Origin: Anaerolineae bacterium
Lineage (GTDB): Bacteria; Chloroflexota; Anaerolineae; Aggregatilineales; Phototrophicaceae
Length of the DNA: 64,000 nt
Assembly (NCBI GenBank): GCA_022820125.1
Contig: JAJEGA010000011.1
Span: 1-64,000, forward strand
Direction of reading: 5' to 3'
The notes beneath the pieces are model-generated. The model searched no databases, was not told the origin of the DNA, and saw only the letters and a list, made by a program, of their open reading frames with translations. Position 1 is the stretch's first letter. Each line of letters starts with the position of its first letter. Both the position numbers and the translations under genes were made by a program. Shown here piece after piece: positions 18,691-33,146 of this stretch.

Positions 18691-19452
18691 TCAGGGATAC
18701 AGATAGGGTTGGCGCGGCTCATCAATGCGCTCTATTGAATCGGCAAACACAACGGGCAGGATATCAGCGCCGAAGGTCGACGCTTTCAACTCGCCTCGCA
18801 GGCGCAGCCAGCCGCCGGCGGCGTATTCGCCCGCGTCATCGGCGATAACCGGCATGCCGATGGGGAAGGCATCGGCGACGCAGCAGCTCATGGTGAAGCG
18901 CGCCAGCATGAATCCATTTTCCGGATGAATCGGCTCGCGATAGACAAAGCCGATGACATCCACCGGCGTTCCGTTGAATTGCGCCGGGGTGGAAGCGCGA
19001 TCGAATTCGCGCAGCCAATCGAGGATATTGCGGTCAAGCGGGCTGCGCGTCACGCCGGCGACGCCCACCGGGTTCAAACTGACGCCGCCGTTCACCGCCT
19101 CGATGCCCAGCGATCGCGACGGTATCAAGACGGCAAGCAGCAGCGGAAAAGCGACCACCAGCAGGATATCCCAGGTGATATGGTAGTGATGGTGATGGTC
19201 ATGGTCATGGTGATGATGGTCGTGGTCGCTTCGCTCTGGATTCAAGCTGCGGTTCAGCGCCGTCAGCCCCAAGACGAAGAACAACAGCGCGCCCACGACG
19301 ACCAGCCAGGCGAAGCGCTGATTGATGTAATTATCGAGATTGCCAGTCAGGATGAGCAGCGTCAGGTAAATGCCCATACCGAACAGAATGAGCGACTTCG
19401 CCCAGGCGCTGATGTCCACCGGCTCTTCCCGCTTATGCCGCGCCGCAGTCAT
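18691..19452 (-). CDS. TIGR03943 (DUF1980) permease-partner protein
   Basis: Protein of 253 residues of the TIGR03943 family, homologous to B. subtilis YcgQ. Two N-terminal helices, a His/Asp-rich cytoplasmic loop (HDHHHHDHDHHHHYH) and a third helix lead to a C-terminal domain. That domain contains FTMSCCVADAFPIGMPV with a paired Cys. These proteins are encoded with DUF318 permeases, as here (43 bases after one). A role in metal handling is inferred from the His-rich loop and the CC motif; no transport assay is known to me. Confidence 0.88.
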   Translation of the reverse strand: MTAARHKREEPVDISAWAKSLILFGMGIYLTLLILTGNLDNYINQRFAWLVVVGALLFFVLGLTALNRSLNPERSDHDHHHHDHDHHHHYHITWDILLVVAFPLLLAVLIPSRSLGIEAVNGGVSLNPVGVAGVTRSPLDRNILDWLREFDRASTPAQFNGTPVDVIGFVYREPIHPENGFMLARFTMSCCVADAFPIGMPVIADDAGEYAAGGWLRLRGELKASTFGADILPVVFADSIERIDEPRQPYLYP

Positions 19453-19494
19453 CGTTATAGTTTCGCGCTTCCATTGATAAGGTCGAACCTTCGA

Positions 19495-20529
19495 TTAAAC
19501 ATAACCCAAGATCAAATTGATCACTGTTCCCGCCAGCAGATTCATCACAAATGGCAGCAAGACCAAGTAGAGCACGATGCGGCGGCGGAAAACGCCGGTG
19601 AACATCAGCGTGCTTTTGATATCCACCATCGGTCCAAAGCTGAGGAAACTGACGATAGCGCCCGCCGTGAAGGTGTTGACAAAAGCCAGCGCCAGGAAGC
19701 TGTCAACCGTCGAGCAGACGCTGAGCACATACGCGAGAATCTGCATGAAGACGACCGAGAGGACCGGACCCGTGCCCAGCGCCAGCAAGCTCTCCTGGGG
19801 CACGAGCGTCTGCATCAGCGCCGCCAGAATCGAGCCGAAGATGAGGAAGCGCCCCATTTCGAAGAATTCGTCGCCGGCGATCCCCAGCGCCCCCATCAGC
19901 TTGGCGCGCGTCGATGGCGCTTCGTGATCGTGATGCGCGTGATCATCGTGAGCGCCGCCCAGGGAAATCGGCTTGAGCACGGCGGACCGCTGCGCGAAGC
20001 TCCCAACAACGACGCCGACAGTGACAGCCACCAAGATGGTGACGATGATGCGCCCGATAAAGACGGGACCAAAGCCAAAGGCGATGTAGGTGCTGGCGAA
20101 GACGATGGGATTCATGAATGGCGCCGCTAACAGAAAGGCGATGCCGAGCGAAACTGGCGTACCTTTCTTGAAGAGCCGGCGCGCCACCGGCACAACGCCG
20201 CACTCGCAGACGGGAAATACCAAGCCAAGAAAGGCGCCGCCAATCGCCGCGCCCAGCCGATTCCGCGGCAGATAGCGCATGATGTCGTCCGATTTGATGA
20301 AGGTCTCGATCAAGCCCGAGGTGATGGACCCCAGGAGCAAGAAGGGAACCGCCTCGACGAAGATGCCCAGGAAGCGCGTGGCGAAGACGCTCAAGACCAG
20401 CGCGAAGTCGCGGTTTGCGCTATAAGCCTGATAACCGATGGAAGAAAGCAAAAGCGCCGCCAGCAGCGACAAGCCGATGAGCTTGAGCCGATTCGTTCGG
20501 TCGATGGCGCCTATGCTGCTCAGAATCAT
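19495..20529 (-). CDS. DUF318/ArsP_1-family permease
   Basis: Integral membrane permease of 344 residues (PF03773-like, homologous to B. subtilis YcgR) with about eight helices. Diagnostic segments are [12 protein letters not shown] near the start and [12 protein letters not shown] with [14 protein letters not shown], whose CxC and Pro/Asn lie in the membrane core. A central loop [10 protein letters not shown] can bind metal. It forms a pair with the downstream TIGR03943 protein. The substrate is unsettled: family members include organoarsenical exporters, but the His loop here points to divalent metal. Confidence 0.88.
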
Positions 20530-20565: not shown

Positions 20566-22338
20566 CTAAGAACCGCTCGCCCCATTTTCGGACGCGCCGC
20601 GTGAGAGCACGCGGTAAATCGTGTTGATATGCTCAAAGCCCGCCTTTTGCTTTCGAGGCGGCATTGGCTGGGCGTGGACCTGATCTTTGACCAGTTCGTA
20701 GGTCTCGGCGCTGATGATAATCTCGCCTGGTTCGGCGTTTTCTTGCAAGAATTTGCCGACATCGGGCGCTTCGCCCAGCGCGGCGAACTCAATGCGGTTG
20801 GCGCCGCCCACCATGCCCAGCACCGAATGCCCGCTGTGAATGCCGATGCAGAAGTGCAGCTCATGGTGCTTGTCGACTACTTCATGCAGCGCATCCATCT
20901 CGCCCAGGATCGCCTGCGCCGCCTGCACCGCCCGCAGCGCGTGATCGTCTTGCTGGTTCAATTGCGAATTCCAGAGCGCTTTGATCGCATCGCCGAGGTA
21001 TTGATCAACAATGCCGTCGTGCGCGGTGATGGCATCGCTGGCCGCGCCCAGATAGCGGTTGATGATTCGCATCAAATCTTCCGGCTGCAGGTATTCGCTG
21101 AAGGCGGTGAAGCCATCAACATCGGCGAACATTGCCGAGATCGTGCGTTCCGCCGGGCTGGTGTCCAGCTCGCTGATCGAGCCTATATTCTCCAGCAGCG
21201 CATCCGACACAAAGGTGCCCAGCAGGCGCCGCTGTTCTTCTTGTTCCTTGCGTTCGGTCAGGTCGTCGATGACCAGGGCGACCCCGTGATTGACCTGGTC
21301 GTCGCTGCGCAGCGGGCTGGCGACCACCTGCCAATAACGCTGCCGGCCATGGCGCTCAAAGCGCTCAGCCCAAATATGCTGCGTCTGCTCGCGGCGGACG
21401 CGCTCGATCGATTCGTAGAAGCCCTCGGTGACCTGGGGCAGCAGCTCATTCAAGGGCAGGCCGCAGGCATTCGCGTTGGCGGCGCCGGTGATCGCTTCCG
21501 CCGCTTCGTTGCAGACAAGGACGCAATTCTCGCCGTTGACGGTGATGACGCCGGAGCCGATCGAGGCGAAGATATTGGACAGGCGCCCCTGCATCTCTTC
21601 GATCAATGCCAGCTGCGCGCGTATGTCCTCGAAGAGGCGCGCGTTTTCGATGGCGACGGCCGCCTGCTGCCCAAAGCTCGTCAGCAGGCCCAATTCGTTT
21701 TCTTTGAACAAACCCGCCATTATGCGATTATCGCAATAAGCGACGCCGATCACTTCATCGCGCGCGATCAAGGGCGCCGCCAATATGCTCAAGAGGCTGA
21801 AGCCGGCGATGCTCTCGCTGTGGCTGAATTGCTCATCGGCGCCGGCGTCAACGGTCAGCAAAGGCTCGCCGCTCTCGGCGACCATATTGATGACCGACCA
21901 ACTGACGATGCGTCCGCCGGCTGCCGTTTCTTCGGCGCTCAACCCACGCGCGACAGTGAACTCCAACTCGCCGGTGTCGCGGTTCTTCAGCACGATATAG
22001 CCGCGCTCAGCCTGCGTCAACTGAATGACATTCTCCATCACTTCGTTGAGCACTTCGTCGGTTTCCTGCCCCGAATTGACCAGCGCGGTGGTCTCCGCCA
22101 GGCGGCGCAGCTGCTGCAGCTGCATATGCGTCTCCACCAGGGCGACAGAGAGTTTGTCTATGCTGGAGCGAACGGTCCACAGGCGGTCAATGGCGCTGGC
22201 GGGCAGGCTAATGCCGCGGCGCCGCAGCAAAGCCTGCTGCTGTTCCAGCAAGGTCTTCACTTCATCGGCGCGCGTCTTCAAGCCCTTCAACTGAGTTTGA
22301 ATCGCGCTGAACCCCGTTGCTTTCGCCACTTCGCTCAT
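20566..22338 (-). CDS. GAF-PAS class III cyclase, C1-like half
   Basis: Cytoplasmic signalling protein of 590 residues. It has an N-terminal coiled coil (1-85), a GAF domain (about 88-235), a PAS domain (about 250-365), and a class III nucleotidyl cyclase domain (about 398-578). Both metal aspartates are present: D406 in FADVDGFT and D450 in QYLGD. The purine-binding Lys is replaced by Q446, and the transition-state Asn and Arg are replaced by D526 and F530 (LGEAPDVGKF). It should therefore be inactive as a homodimer. Its ATG lies inside the stop codon of the partner gene upstream (ATGA 22335-22338). It resembles the C1 half of mammalian adenylyl cyclase. Confidence 0.9.
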   Translation of the reverse strand: MSEVAKATGFSAIQTQLKGLKTRADEVKTLLEQQQALLRRRGISLPASAIDRLWTVRSSIDKLSVALVETHMQLQQLRRLAETTALVNSGQETDEVLNEVMENVIQLTQAERGYIVLKNRDTGELEFTVARGLSAEETAAGGRIVSWSVINMVAESGEPLLTVDAGADEQFSHSESIAGFSLLSILAAPLIARDEVIGVAYCDNRIMAGLFKENELGLLTSFGQQAAVAIENARLFEDIRAQLALIEEMQGRLSNIFASIGSGVITVNGENCVLVCNEAAEAITGAANANACGLPLNELLPQVTEGFYESIERVRREQTQHIWAERFERHGRQRYWQVVASPLRSDDQVNHGVALVIDDLTERKEQEEQRRLLGTFVSDALLENIGSISELDTSPAERTISAMFADVDGFTAFSEYLQPEDLMRIINRYLGAASDAITAHDGIVDQYLGDAIKALWNSQLNQQDDHALRAVQAAQAILGEMDALHEVVDKHHELHFCIGIHSGHSVLGMVGGANRIEFAALGEAPDVGKFLQENAEPGEIIISAETYELVKDQVHAQPMPPRKQKAGFEHINTIYRVLSRGASENGASGS

Positions 22339-24101
22339 GCGCTTCGGCTCACCTCATACGCTCGCATGGCGACCGAAAGCCCTTTGCCCGAGATGGGAGC
22401 GCGAGGGCGAAAGTCGTATCTGTGTTCCTCGTCATGATTCCTCAGGATATGATCCAGCGTCTGCTGCGCAATGGTGATGGCGCCGCGCGCGCCATTTTCC
22501 TGGATGCGCTTGGCCGTGTTGATGCTGTTGCCCAACGCGGTGAATTCGCGCCGCTGAAAACTGCCGACATTGCCCAGCGTCGCCACGCCAGTGAACATGC
22601 CGATGATATAGTAATGCGGGTCGGGGTCGATATTCAGTTCACGATAGAGGTCGACGAAGCGATCGCGCATTAGCAGACCGCATTCAAGCGCCGCCTGGGC
22701 ATGATTGTGTTCAGGATTGAGCTGCGTATTAAAGAGCGCCATCACCTCGTTGCCCATGTACTTGTCGATGATTCCGCCGCACTCATTGATGCAAGCGGTG
22801 GCGATCGCCTGATATTGGTTCAGGATGCGCAGCTTCTCGCTGGCGGAGACATCGGGCAGCGTAACCCAGGGGCGCACATCGGCGAAGAGACAGGTGACCT
22901 CGCGCCGCAAACCGCCCATTTCGATGTTGGCGATCTCGTTGATCTGATCGACCATGCCCTCGGGCAAGATCCTTTTCATGGCGTTGATCGTGGTTTCATG
23001 CTCGTGCAAGTGGGTGACGTCATCCATCACCATGGCGACGCCTTGCGTCATGTCGTTGCGGTCCTTGAGCGGCGACAGCGAAAGCGCCAGGGCGACCTGC
23101 CCCCGCCCCGGCAGCTCGGCGCTCAGTTCAAGCGAGTGATCCTGGTCGTTTCGTTTGACATGCGCCAAGTGATCTTCGAGTTCAAGCGCGGCTGTTTTCA
23201 TCAGCTGCGAGACATCGTTGCCGACCGCGGCATCGGGCGGCAGATCCAGGATTTCACCGGCGGCGCGGTTGAAGGTGTGGACGAGGTCATTGGAGTCGAT
23301 GGCGATGATGCCGCTGCCCACCGAGGAAAAGATGTTGTCCATCAACTCCTTGACCTGGGTGATCTCCGCCAGGATTTGCTCAGCGCGCATATACATGCGG
23401 GCATTGGCGATCGCGACCGCGGCCGTATTGGCGAACGCCATCATCAGGTTCAGTTCGCGCTCGGTGAAAAGACCGGCGACCAGGCGATTGTCGACATAAA
23501 CGACGCCGATAATCCGTTCCTTATAGCGCAGCGGCACGCATAAGACCGACCGCAGCGTGAAGTTGATGATGCTCTGATTCTCCGATAGCCGGTCGTCTTG
23601 GTAGGCGTTGTCCGCCAGCAAGGGATTGCCGGTCGACATGACTTCGTTGACGACGGTCATGCTGATCTGCGGTCCGTCGCCAGAAGCCATCGCGCGCCCC
23701 ATTAAGCCGCTCTCGCTGCTGATGCGGAATTCCAACTCGGCAGTCTCGTCGTTTGATAGCACGATATAACCGCGTTCGGCGTTCGTCAGCACGATGACAA
23801 GTTCCATCGTTTCAGCCAGCACGGTATCCACATTCAAGGAATTGGTGATGCGCGTGGACATCTCCGAAAGCGCCCGCAGCTGCCGCAGCTCGGTCTGCTC
23901 TTCAAGCACATTGTGTTCCAAGCGCTTGAAATCTTGTTTGAGCGTCTCGACCTTGTTGACGATGGCGACCGGCATGGCGATCTTCCGGCGGCGCAACAAT
24001 TCCCGCTGCGCTTCCAAGGTCTTGTTGACCTCGTCCAACTGGTCTTCCAGCTGCCTCATTTCGGCGATTAAATTGGTCGCTGCCACTTGCGCTTCTGACA
24101 T
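22335..24101 (-). CDS. GAF-PAS class III cyclase, C2-like half
   Basis: Protein of 588 residues with the same order as its partner: coiled coil (1-85), GAF (about 85-235), PAS (about 250-365), class III cyclase domain (about 398-580). Here Lys447 (DKYMG), Glu519 (RREF), Asn528 and Arg532 (GNSINTAKR) are kept. The second metal Asp is replaced by N451, and the usual GFT after the first Asp (D408) reads RPW. It should bind nucleotide and stabilise the transition state, but not hold both metals. Translational coupling to the next gene favours a 1:1 complex. Adenine or guanine specificity is not certain. Confidence 0.9.
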   Translation of the reverse strand: MSEAQVAATNLIAEMRQLEDQLDEVNKTLEAQRELLRRRKIAMPVAIVNKVETLKQDFKRLEHNVLEEQTELRQLRALSEMSTRITNSLNVDTVLAETMELVIVLTNAERGYIVLSNDETAELEFRISSESGLMGRAMASGDGPQISMTVVNEVMSTGNPLLADNAYQDDRLSENQSIINFTLRSVLCVPLRYKERIIGVVYVDNRLVAGLFTERELNLMMAFANTAAVAIANARMYMRAEQILAEITQVKELMDNIFSSVGSGIIAIDSNDLVHTFNRAAGEILDLPPDAAVGNDVSQLMKTAALELEDHLAHVKRNDQDHSLELSAELPGRGQVALALSLSPLKDRNDMTQGVAMVMDDVTHLHEHETTINAMKRILPEGMVDQINEIANIEMGGLRREVTCLFADVRPWVTLPDVSASEKLRILNQYQAIATACINECGGIIDKYMGNEVMALFNTQLNPEHNHAQAALECGLLMRDRFVDLYRELNIDPDPHYYIIGMFTGVATLGNVGSFQRREFTALGNSINTAKRIQENGARGAITIAQQTLDHILRNHDEEHRYDFRPRAPISGKGLSVAMRAYEVSRSA

Positions 24102-26864: not shown

Positions 26865-26886
26865 CTGGAATTGCGGGGCGCGGATG

Positions 26887-26892
26887 TATAAT
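26887..26892 (+). promoter_or_regulatory. -10 of ATPase/TOPRIM operon
   Basis: A perfect TATAAT preceded by G lies 40 bases before ATG 26932. The -35 is poor. It is divergent from, and about 25 bases away from, the tsaD -10. Confidence 0.45.
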
Positions 26893-26931
26893 GATGGGCA
26901 GGATAAGCGCTTTTGCGCAAGAAGGTGCGTT

Positions 26932-28038
26932 ATGTACAAGTCGTTTCGGGTGAAGAATTTCCGCTGCTTCAAGGACTTGCAGATCAATGATTTGAGTCGG
27001 GTGAATTTGATTGCGGGGAAGAACAATACCGGGAAGACGGCGTTGATGGAGGCGATGCATGTCTTGGCTGGCACCTACAGCGGCCAGGTCTTGCTTCGCA
27101 ATCCCGGGCTTCGCAGGGCGTTGCTAAATCCTGAAAATGAGAGTGAACCGCGCAATCAGTTAACTTGGTCGACAATTTTCAAAGGTCTACAAACAGGTCT
27201 CTCCATAGAATTAGCAGCAACTGAGAAAATCCCAAATCGGACTGTTGACACATCTCAATCAAGAATTGAGTTGTCGATTCAAAGTGTTTCTGTCTCCGAC
27301 GCTACTGATGATGAGTCGAGATACAAGAGCTTTGGCTATCAGTACGATGCACTGCCGGATGACGTGGACCTGCTCAAGCTCTGTTCCAGCCTTGATGGTC
27401 ACCCTACATATCTTGCGCTAATTCACTCGGGCATTGTATACCCGCGGCTCAAACCCAGCCGTTTCCGCCCCAGCCAACTCCTTCATGCTAGGACGGGCGC
27501 AAGCGCGCGCGACATAGAGCGACGCTTTAACAGAATTCAGAAGACGAAGAAGATTGATATGCTGGTTGGCGCCTTGGAACTTATTGAGCCCCGCATTAAG
27601 GATGTGCGCATCAATCCCGACGGCTGGCGATCGCATCTGATGACGGACATCGGTCTTGAAAACATGATCGCTATGTCAGAATCCGGCGAAGGCATGAATC
27701 GTTTATCAGACATCGTACTTGCCATGCACGAGGCTAAAGGCGGCATCATCTTCATAGACGAAATCGAAAACGGCATCCACCACTCGGTGCAATGCAAGGT
27801 TTGGAAAGCCATCGGTCAAGTCGCGCGCGAGCTGGACATCCAAGTCTTCGCCACCACGCACAGCCTCGAAATGATTCGCGCCGCGTACGAAGCCTTCTCT
27901 GAAGACGACGAACTCGAAGAGTTCCGCTATCATCGGTTGAGCAGGAGTCGCAAAACGGGAGAATTAAGAGCCACCACCTACAACGAACTTGATATGGAAG
28001 CGGTAGCGGCCTTTGATTTTGATCATGAGGTTCGCTAA
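26932..28038 (+). CDS. OLD-like AAA/ABC ATPase (defence-type)
   Basis: ATPase of 368 residues of the AAA_15/AAA_21 (OLD/RecF-like) group. MYKSFRVKNFRCF opens the fold, Walker A is GKNNTGKTA, Walker B is GGIIFIDEIENGIHH, and the H-loop is FATTHSLEM. A long, AT-richer insert (about 60-200) between the motifs is poorly conserved and probably recognises a target. ATG 26932 has AGAAGG upstream. The stop shares a base with the next start (TAATG), so it is coupled to a TOPRIM-fold protein. The pair looks like a split OLD nuclease, comparable in plan to PARIS (AriA/AriB). Defence is inferred. Confidence 0.82.
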   Translation: MYKSFRVKNFRCFKDLQINDLSRVNLIAGKNNTGKTALMEAMHVLAGTYSGQVLLRNPGLRRALLNPENESEPRNQLTWSTIFKGLQTGLSIELAATEKIPNRTVDTSQSRIELSIQSVSVSDATDDESRYKSFGYQYDALPDDVDLLKLCSSLDGHPTYLALIHSGIVYPRLKPSRFRPSQLLHARTGASARDIERRFNRIQKTKKIDMLVGALELIEPRIKDVRINPDGWRSHLMTDIGLENMIAMSESGEGMNRLSDIVLAMHEAKGGIIFIDEIENGIHHSVQCKVWKAIGQVARELDIQVFATTHSLEMIRAAYEAFSEDDELEEFRYHRLSRSRKTGELRATTYNELDMEAVAAFDFDHEVR

Positions 28039-28739
28039 TGGACGAGCTGATCCCAGATGGCATAACCCGGCTGCTGCTAGTAGAAGGAAATGATGATGAA
28101 ATCTTCTTCAGAAACTTTGTAGATCATCTAGTAGCTTCATCGGATACACGACTTCTCGTATCTGAGTTTGCGATCATCCAATACGGAGGCAGAAGTCAAT
28201 TAACACTGCGGCTCCGCGACTTGAAGAAGGCTGATAACTTTGAGCACATAACCCATATAGGAATCGCGCGCGACAGCGACTTCAACACTGATGCGCTTCG
28301 CAGCGTTCAAGACAGAATCAGAACCATCAACAGAGAAGGTCCACCAATTATTGACATTCCGGACCACCCAATTGTGCTAACGATCGGTGATCCCAAAGTG
28401 TCCGTGCTGATCGTTCCCTCAGCAGATCGCGAAGGAATGCTTGAAGATCTTGTCATGGATTCACTACAGGTCGATCCCATTGCGAACTGTGTACATAAAT
28501 TCTTCGACTGTTTAGAAGAGAAGCAGGTAACGATTGTTCCCGAAAAGAGATCCAAGGCACAAATACGGGTATTTCTCATCGGCAAGAATGTGGGCTTGGA
28601 CACCGATGTCAGCGGTATTACCGAAAGATTGTTTTTGTCCAATGCCTACGAAACACAGGTGTGGCAGCAAAGGAATTTGTGGGAAAGTCCTAAATTGGCA
28701 GACGCCAAAGCCTTCCTCACCCAACTGCTCAAACCGTAG
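28038..28739 (+). CDS. DUF3226-type TOPRIM-fold protein
   Basis: Protein of 233 residues with a TOPRIM signature: LLLVEGNDDEIFF near residue 12 supplies the catalytic Glu, and IARDSDFN near residue 77 supplies the DxD pair. It fits DUF3226/OLD-TOPRIM proteins, which act as metal-dependent nucleases or effectors beside an AAA ATPase. It is coupled to the ATPase by a 1-base overlap. It is visibly AT-richer than neighbouring genes, a sign of transfer. The C-terminal LADAKAFLTQLL is typical of the family. Confidence 0.75.
   Translation: MDELIPDGITRLLLVEGNDDEIFFRNFVDHLVASSDTRLLVSEFAIIQYGGRSQLTLRLRDLKKADNFEHITHIGIARDSDFNTDALRSVQDRIRTINREGPPIIDIPDHPIVLTIGDPKVSVLIVPSADREGMLEDLVMDSLQVDPIANCVHKFFDCLEEKQVTIVPEKRSKAQIRVFLIGKNVGLDTDVSGITERLFLSNAYETQVWQQRNLWESPKLADAKAFLTQLLKP

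Positions 28740-30951: not shown

Positions 30952-33146
<2,195 letters not shown>

Follow-up and report, generated by a model that had tools for sequence, protein, structure and literature searches.

Two overlapping genes in the 64,000-nucleotide window (the whole stretch of DNA that was analysed), here termed A and B, very probably encode the two subunits of a single soluble class III nucleotide cyclase that would be active only as an A:B heterodimer. Each predicted protein lacks catalytic residues that the other retains, and the same division of residues recurs in about 80 related genomes, suggesting that the enzyme works only as a pair. Phylogenetic analyses point to a single tandem duplication followed by reciprocal loss as the origin of the pair.

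The gene pair and its divided active site

A and B are located on the minus strand, where B precedes A. B (588 aa; 22335-24101) and A (590 aa; 20566-22338) each consist of N-terminal helices, a GAF domain, a PAS domain and a class III cyclase domain, with A corresponding to a C1-like half and B to a C2-like half. In B, the GAF domain spans residues 91-231 (23409-23831), the PAS domain residues 254-363 (23013-23342) and the catalytic domain (PF00211) positions 22380-22901, which include the codons of Asn451 (22749-22751) and Arg532 (22506-22508). In A, the corresponding regions are residues 93-230 for GAF (21649-22062), residues 252-359 for PAS (21262-21585) and positions 20677-21147 for the catalytic domain, which include the codons of Asp406 (21121-21123), Asp450 (20989-20991) and Phe530 (20749-20751). 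The coordinates of both genes in the initial annotation are correct, and its assignment of GAF and PAS inputs to both proteins is borne out by Pfam: GAF, PAS and Guanylate_cyc each score above the cut-off in A and in B, and the PF00211 scores (55.6 bits for A and 35.7 bits for B) place both proteins in the class III family. A 602-aa open frame runs antisense to A (20629-22437, plus strand); with no sign of a gene, it is probably a by-product of base composition.

The results of residue numbering and alignment indicate that the catalytic set is distributed between the two chains. A has both metal-binding aspartates (Asp406 and Asp450) but is without the Lys, Asn and Arg, these positions being occupied by Gln446, Asp526 and Phe530, respectively, all as originally read; the column specifying the base is Ala519. 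B has Lys447, Thr521, Asn528 and Arg532 and keeps the first metal Asp (Asp408), whereas the second is replaced by Asn451, and the motif RPW stands where GFT is usual. For B, the initial annotation was right about Lys447, Asn451, Asn528, Arg532 and RPW, but the Glu519 that it listed is not an active-site position; the base-specifying Asp/Thr column is occupied by Thr521. Neither polypeptide by itself contains the complete residue set that a homodimer would need. One A:B interface, in contrast, combines the two Asp residues of A with the Lys, Thr, Asn and Arg of B, and at the other interface both sides are defective. Residue checks and alignment therefore agree with the proposal that neither homodimer is complete and that one A:B interface is. 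This division, with the metal pair on one chain and the Lys, Asn and Arg on the other, is of the C1/C2 type that had been suggested, as in the mammalian C1/C2 halves and human soluble guanylyl cyclase (sGC).

The B stop codon and the A start codon share the four bases ATGA (22335-22338). As judged by a simple start-codon rule, a 4-base overlap is common among related loci (36 of 80 pairs) but not universal: 55 of 80 pairs overlap, 20 are spaced by 0-30 bp and five by 31-109 bp. As the gap exceeds 30 bp in five pairs, the overlap is a weak argument for the 1:1 synthesis that had been deduced from it. The two genes are co-oriented with B first in all 80 pairs, whereas the flanking genes (permease, TIGR03943 and others) are kept almost only inside the window's genus, as judged for loci outside the genus from flanks of just 1.5-2 kb; these results indicate that the pair, rather than its neighbourhood, is the conserved unit. 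In the window, genes for an ArsP_1 permease and a TIGR03943 subunit are present at 18691-20529 (minus strand), with the permease start 37 bp after A, and in the window's genus they are perhaps on the same transcript as the pair.

The plus strand of the window carries further genes. At 26884-28739, a gene for an AAA ATPase overlaps that for a DUF3226 protein; in PADLOC, the two best match the candidate defence pair PDC-M38A/B and are less similar to PARIS AriA/AriB. A 603-aa single frame at 31335-33146 encodes a DNA N6/N4 methylase and, fused to it, an Mrr-like restriction endonuclease domain.

Conservation of the split and origin of the pair

The search for homologues with query P0001 covered 61 relatives, 298 genomes at class level and 154 at order level; query P0002 was run against 301 genomes of the phylum. 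About 100 loci were extracted and 195 homologues were aligned; the resulting tally covers 85 A, 83 B and 21 single-gene sequences at 88 loci, about 31 of which are from one genus. Eight loci have only one scorable catalytic domain, and all of these are cut by contig ends. One further locus, L044 (G047:C23:259000-265500), has both pair genes broken into several frames, by assembly error or decay, and was left out of the tally. Isolate names suggest that sponge samples were the source of the Chloroflexota/Anaerolineae metagenome-assembled genomes of near relatives.

In the 80 loci with both genes, the complementary split is found without exception (80/80), and thus the genome survey proposed in the initial annotation upholds its reading of the residue split; the complementary sets are those of a heterodimer of the C1/C2 or sGC type. 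Among A sequences, both metal aspartates are invariant (85/85 at each position), whereas the Arg position never has Arg (0/85) and is filled by nine substitutes (F, L, Y, K, I, Q, W, S and T). Asn is present in 14 of 85 A sequences, and the Lys position has Lys in 62 and Gln in 23, the Gln being confined to the window's genus. Among B sequences, Lys, Asn and Arg are invariant (83/83 each), the second metal Asp is absent from all (0/83; seven substitutes: N, T, S, G, H, Q and A) and the first has been lost in 30 of 83. The base position of B is Thr, as is characteristic of class IIIb enzymes, in 78 of 83 and Ser in five. The single-gene homologues, in contrast, have all six canonical residues (21/21, with Thr or Ser at the base position). 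A homologue of A or B occurring alone with these substitutions, which had been set beforehand as evidence against the pairing, was not found in the 154 genomes of the order. Chance or sequencing error is excluded by the recurrence of the split in all 80 pair loci, and pseudogenes are excluded by dN/dS of about 0.1 in both genes: values against nine relatives of the genus are 0.089-0.120 for A and 0.092-0.135 for B, indicating that both genes are under purifying selection.

The distribution of copy number is informative regarding the origin of the pair. Outside the order, and in the order's sister family f2, carriers of this cyclase family have one full-length homologue, with extra, more distant matches in a few of these genomes; in the order apart from f2, nearly every genome has two adjoining copies. 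As the A and B labels were set by the residues themselves, a circularity could be suspected, and this is answered by trees built without the key columns. In a FastTree phylogeny of this kind, the A sequences (62) form one clade, the B sequences (59) form another, and A and B together form a clade with f2 outside. An IQ-TREE analysis of 61 rows under a mixture model, likewise with the key columns left out, supports A (98), B (99), f2 (100) and A+B (100). Duplication before the f2 split with subsequent loss in f2 is rejected by AU tests of trees that place f2 with A (p 0.00099) or with B (p 0.0010). Together with the single complete gene in f2 and in the rest of the class, these results indicate that a homodimeric cyclase with all residues underwent a single tandem duplication after the split from f2, followed by reciprocal loss. 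The trees further indicate that the reciprocal loss preceded diversification of the order's remaining families.

The predicted heterodimer and alternative explanations

The catalytic domains of A and B would dimerise head to tail, as is usual in class III. One site of the dimer would be complete, built from the Asp pair of A and the Lys, Thr, Asn and Arg of B, and the other would be a degenerate pseudo-site consisting of the broken metal site of B and the broken Arg/Asn positions of A. The Lys and Thr of the purine pocket are class IIIb-like, suggesting ATP as the substrate and cAMP as the product. The GAF and PAS domains of each subunit would act on the shared site via the helical linkers, and so A and B could carry different signals to one output. 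Either protein alone may still have weak homodimer activity. Class IIIb adenylyl cyclases make cAMP and in many cases respond to bicarbonate with increased activity. In human soluble adenylyl cyclase (sAC), bicarbonate is bound at the pseudo-site by a Lys and an Arg of C1; as A is everywhere without that Arg, and in part of the window's genus without the Lys, activation of A:B by bicarbonate through the same route is unlikely.

Structure prediction bears on the fold of the two halves. At four loci (L050, L089, L090 and L117), B and A share a reading frame that is interrupted by a stop codon, and the L090 read-through fusion across TAG, comprising the B catalytic domain and the whole of A, was used as AlphaFold input. 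When separate B rows were mixed into the alignment, the A catalytic domains were misplaced, and this version was dropped; a second alignment placed them correctly. The resulting model has a mean pLDDT of 84.7 with well-folded catalytic domains, and a pTM of 0.43. The A catalytic domain best matches those of CyaB and CyaC (3r5g and 1wc1; Z about 26-27, rmsd 1.6-1.9), and the B catalytic domain matches sGC beta with Z 22.4 and rmsd 2.6. The two catalytic domains are undocked (structural alignments that span both have rmsd near 20 A); the B part of the alignment has only four sequences, and the end of B is joined to the start of A in this construct, which works against docking of a parallel dimer.

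Within the heterodimer reading, the inputs might respond to the same ligand or serve dimerisation only, a sub-case that is compatible with the A:B enzyme and has a little less than an even chance. A and B share the same domain order and evolve at equal rate, which is consistent with such shared inputs, whereas the divergence of the two proteins to about 34-40% identity over the full length, input domains included, argues against them.

Active non-canonical class III cyclases exist. In addition, the catalytic domains of human sGC in isolation form homodimers (PMC3591389). A and B could on these grounds each be a homodimer with some activity, using altered residues or metals, with operon pairing serving co-regulation only. 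A specialised non-canonical homodimer would, however, conserve its own substitutions, and at the replaced positions of A and B the residues have drifted (nine at the Arg position of A and seven at the second Asp position of B), as is typical of a site that has fallen out of use, while the complementary positions are invariant and the single-gene relatives keep all residues. Independent homodimers are therefore very unlikely.

A sensor complex of pseudo-cyclases that has no catalytic activity and acts by protein contacts is also highly improbable. Although essential residues are missing from each chain alone and a CYTH-domain protein of the genome could be another source of cAMP, one composite site has the full catalytic set in 80/80 pairs over many genera, and precisely this set would not be retained in a dead complex in which the other site decays.

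In the window's genome (4.2 Mb in 127 contigs), a PF00211 search found the pair and no further class III cyclase domain; the CYTH-domain protein makes another source of cAMP possible. This genome also encodes three proteins with a cNMP-binding domain, two of which read as SulP-type transporters whose cassette has the form GE...R[ST]A; in the third, the cassette is degenerate. As cNMP-binding proteins are also present in genomes without the pair, no effector is tied to the pair. Five members of the family (G034, G236, G269, G407 and G408; all with small genomes of 2.6-3.3 Mb) have no PF00211 domain at all and have kept cNMP-binding proteins; the absence of both genes fits with loss of the pair as a unit.

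Relation to known cyclases and significance

In mammalian transmembrane adenylyl cyclase, the metal Asp pair comes from one half and the Lys, Asn and Arg from the other, yielding one active site and one degenerate pseudo-site in C1:C2. The A/B pair resembles C1:C2 (PF00211) in the residue split and in the predicted single active site and pseudo-site, but differs in that A and B are two soluble gene products with GAF-PAS inputs and a base position occupied by Thr rather than Asp, whereas both mammalian halves are in one membrane chain. Human sGC alpha/beta is similar to A/B in having two gene products, homologous subunits, PAS and helical inputs and split residues, and its homodimers lack activity, as each subunit holds only part of the residue set (PMC3591389); it differs in being an animal enzyme with a haem-NO sensor, a cGMP product and a separate duplication. 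A/B most likely works in the manner of C1:C2 and sGC, with an origin and a gene arrangement of its own.

Other class III enzymes provide partial parallels. The Rv1625c mutants D300A and R376A are each inactive, and combining them in one dimer restores activity (Guo et al., 2001, cited in PMC4821796); like A and B, one partner is without the second metal Asp and the other without the Arg, but these are laboratory mutants of a homodimer, whereas the A/B split is natural and fixed. The class IIIb enzymes CyaB and CyaC share the catalytic fold of A and the Thr at the base position of B, yet they are homodimers with two complete sites. The chytrid RGC1/2-NeoR rhodopsin guanylyl cyclases are obligate heterodimeric class III enzymes, and are two-gene systems with two sensors as proposed for A/B; unlike A and B, RGC1/2 keep all the catalytic residues, and their dependence on NeoR is attributed to another cause (PMC8815786).

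Bacterial class III cyclases are described as homodimerising, a fused dimeric bacterial form was regarded as unknown, and the advantage of a duplicated cyclase has been asked about (2022 review, PMC9552081); homodimerisation has been called a fundamental difference from eukaryotes (PMC4821796). Five loci of the same order (L128, L129, L130, L131 and L132, in G389, G353, G406 and G057) encode sAC-like proteins with two cyclase domains per chain, in contrast to the statement in PMC9552081 about fused bacterial forms. In these, the first domain has both metal Asp residues and the second has Asn and Arg, resembling the A/B split, but they are single chains of a different cyclase family with a separate origin; bacteria thus appear to have reached a divided site more than once. 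No description of a bacterial class III cyclase that is naturally a heterodimer of two gene products was found in the open-licence literature.

A fuller proposal, which can be given an even chance, is that A/B is a natural two-gene obligate heterodimer, fixed across most of the order by its own tandem duplication and reciprocal loss independently of animal C1/C2 and sGC, and that it is a coincidence detector, with two sensors controlling a single active site and the vacated pseudo-site serving in regulation. If the A:B reading is true, bacteria would have in this pair a naturally evolved equivalent of the two halves that make up animal adenylyl cyclase. The pair also clearly illustrates how duplicated genes can lose complementary parts of an active site that they share. 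As close relatives still include both the single-gene form (f2) and the split form (the other families of the order), the step from homodimer to heterodimer can be tested in the laboratory with natural proteins.
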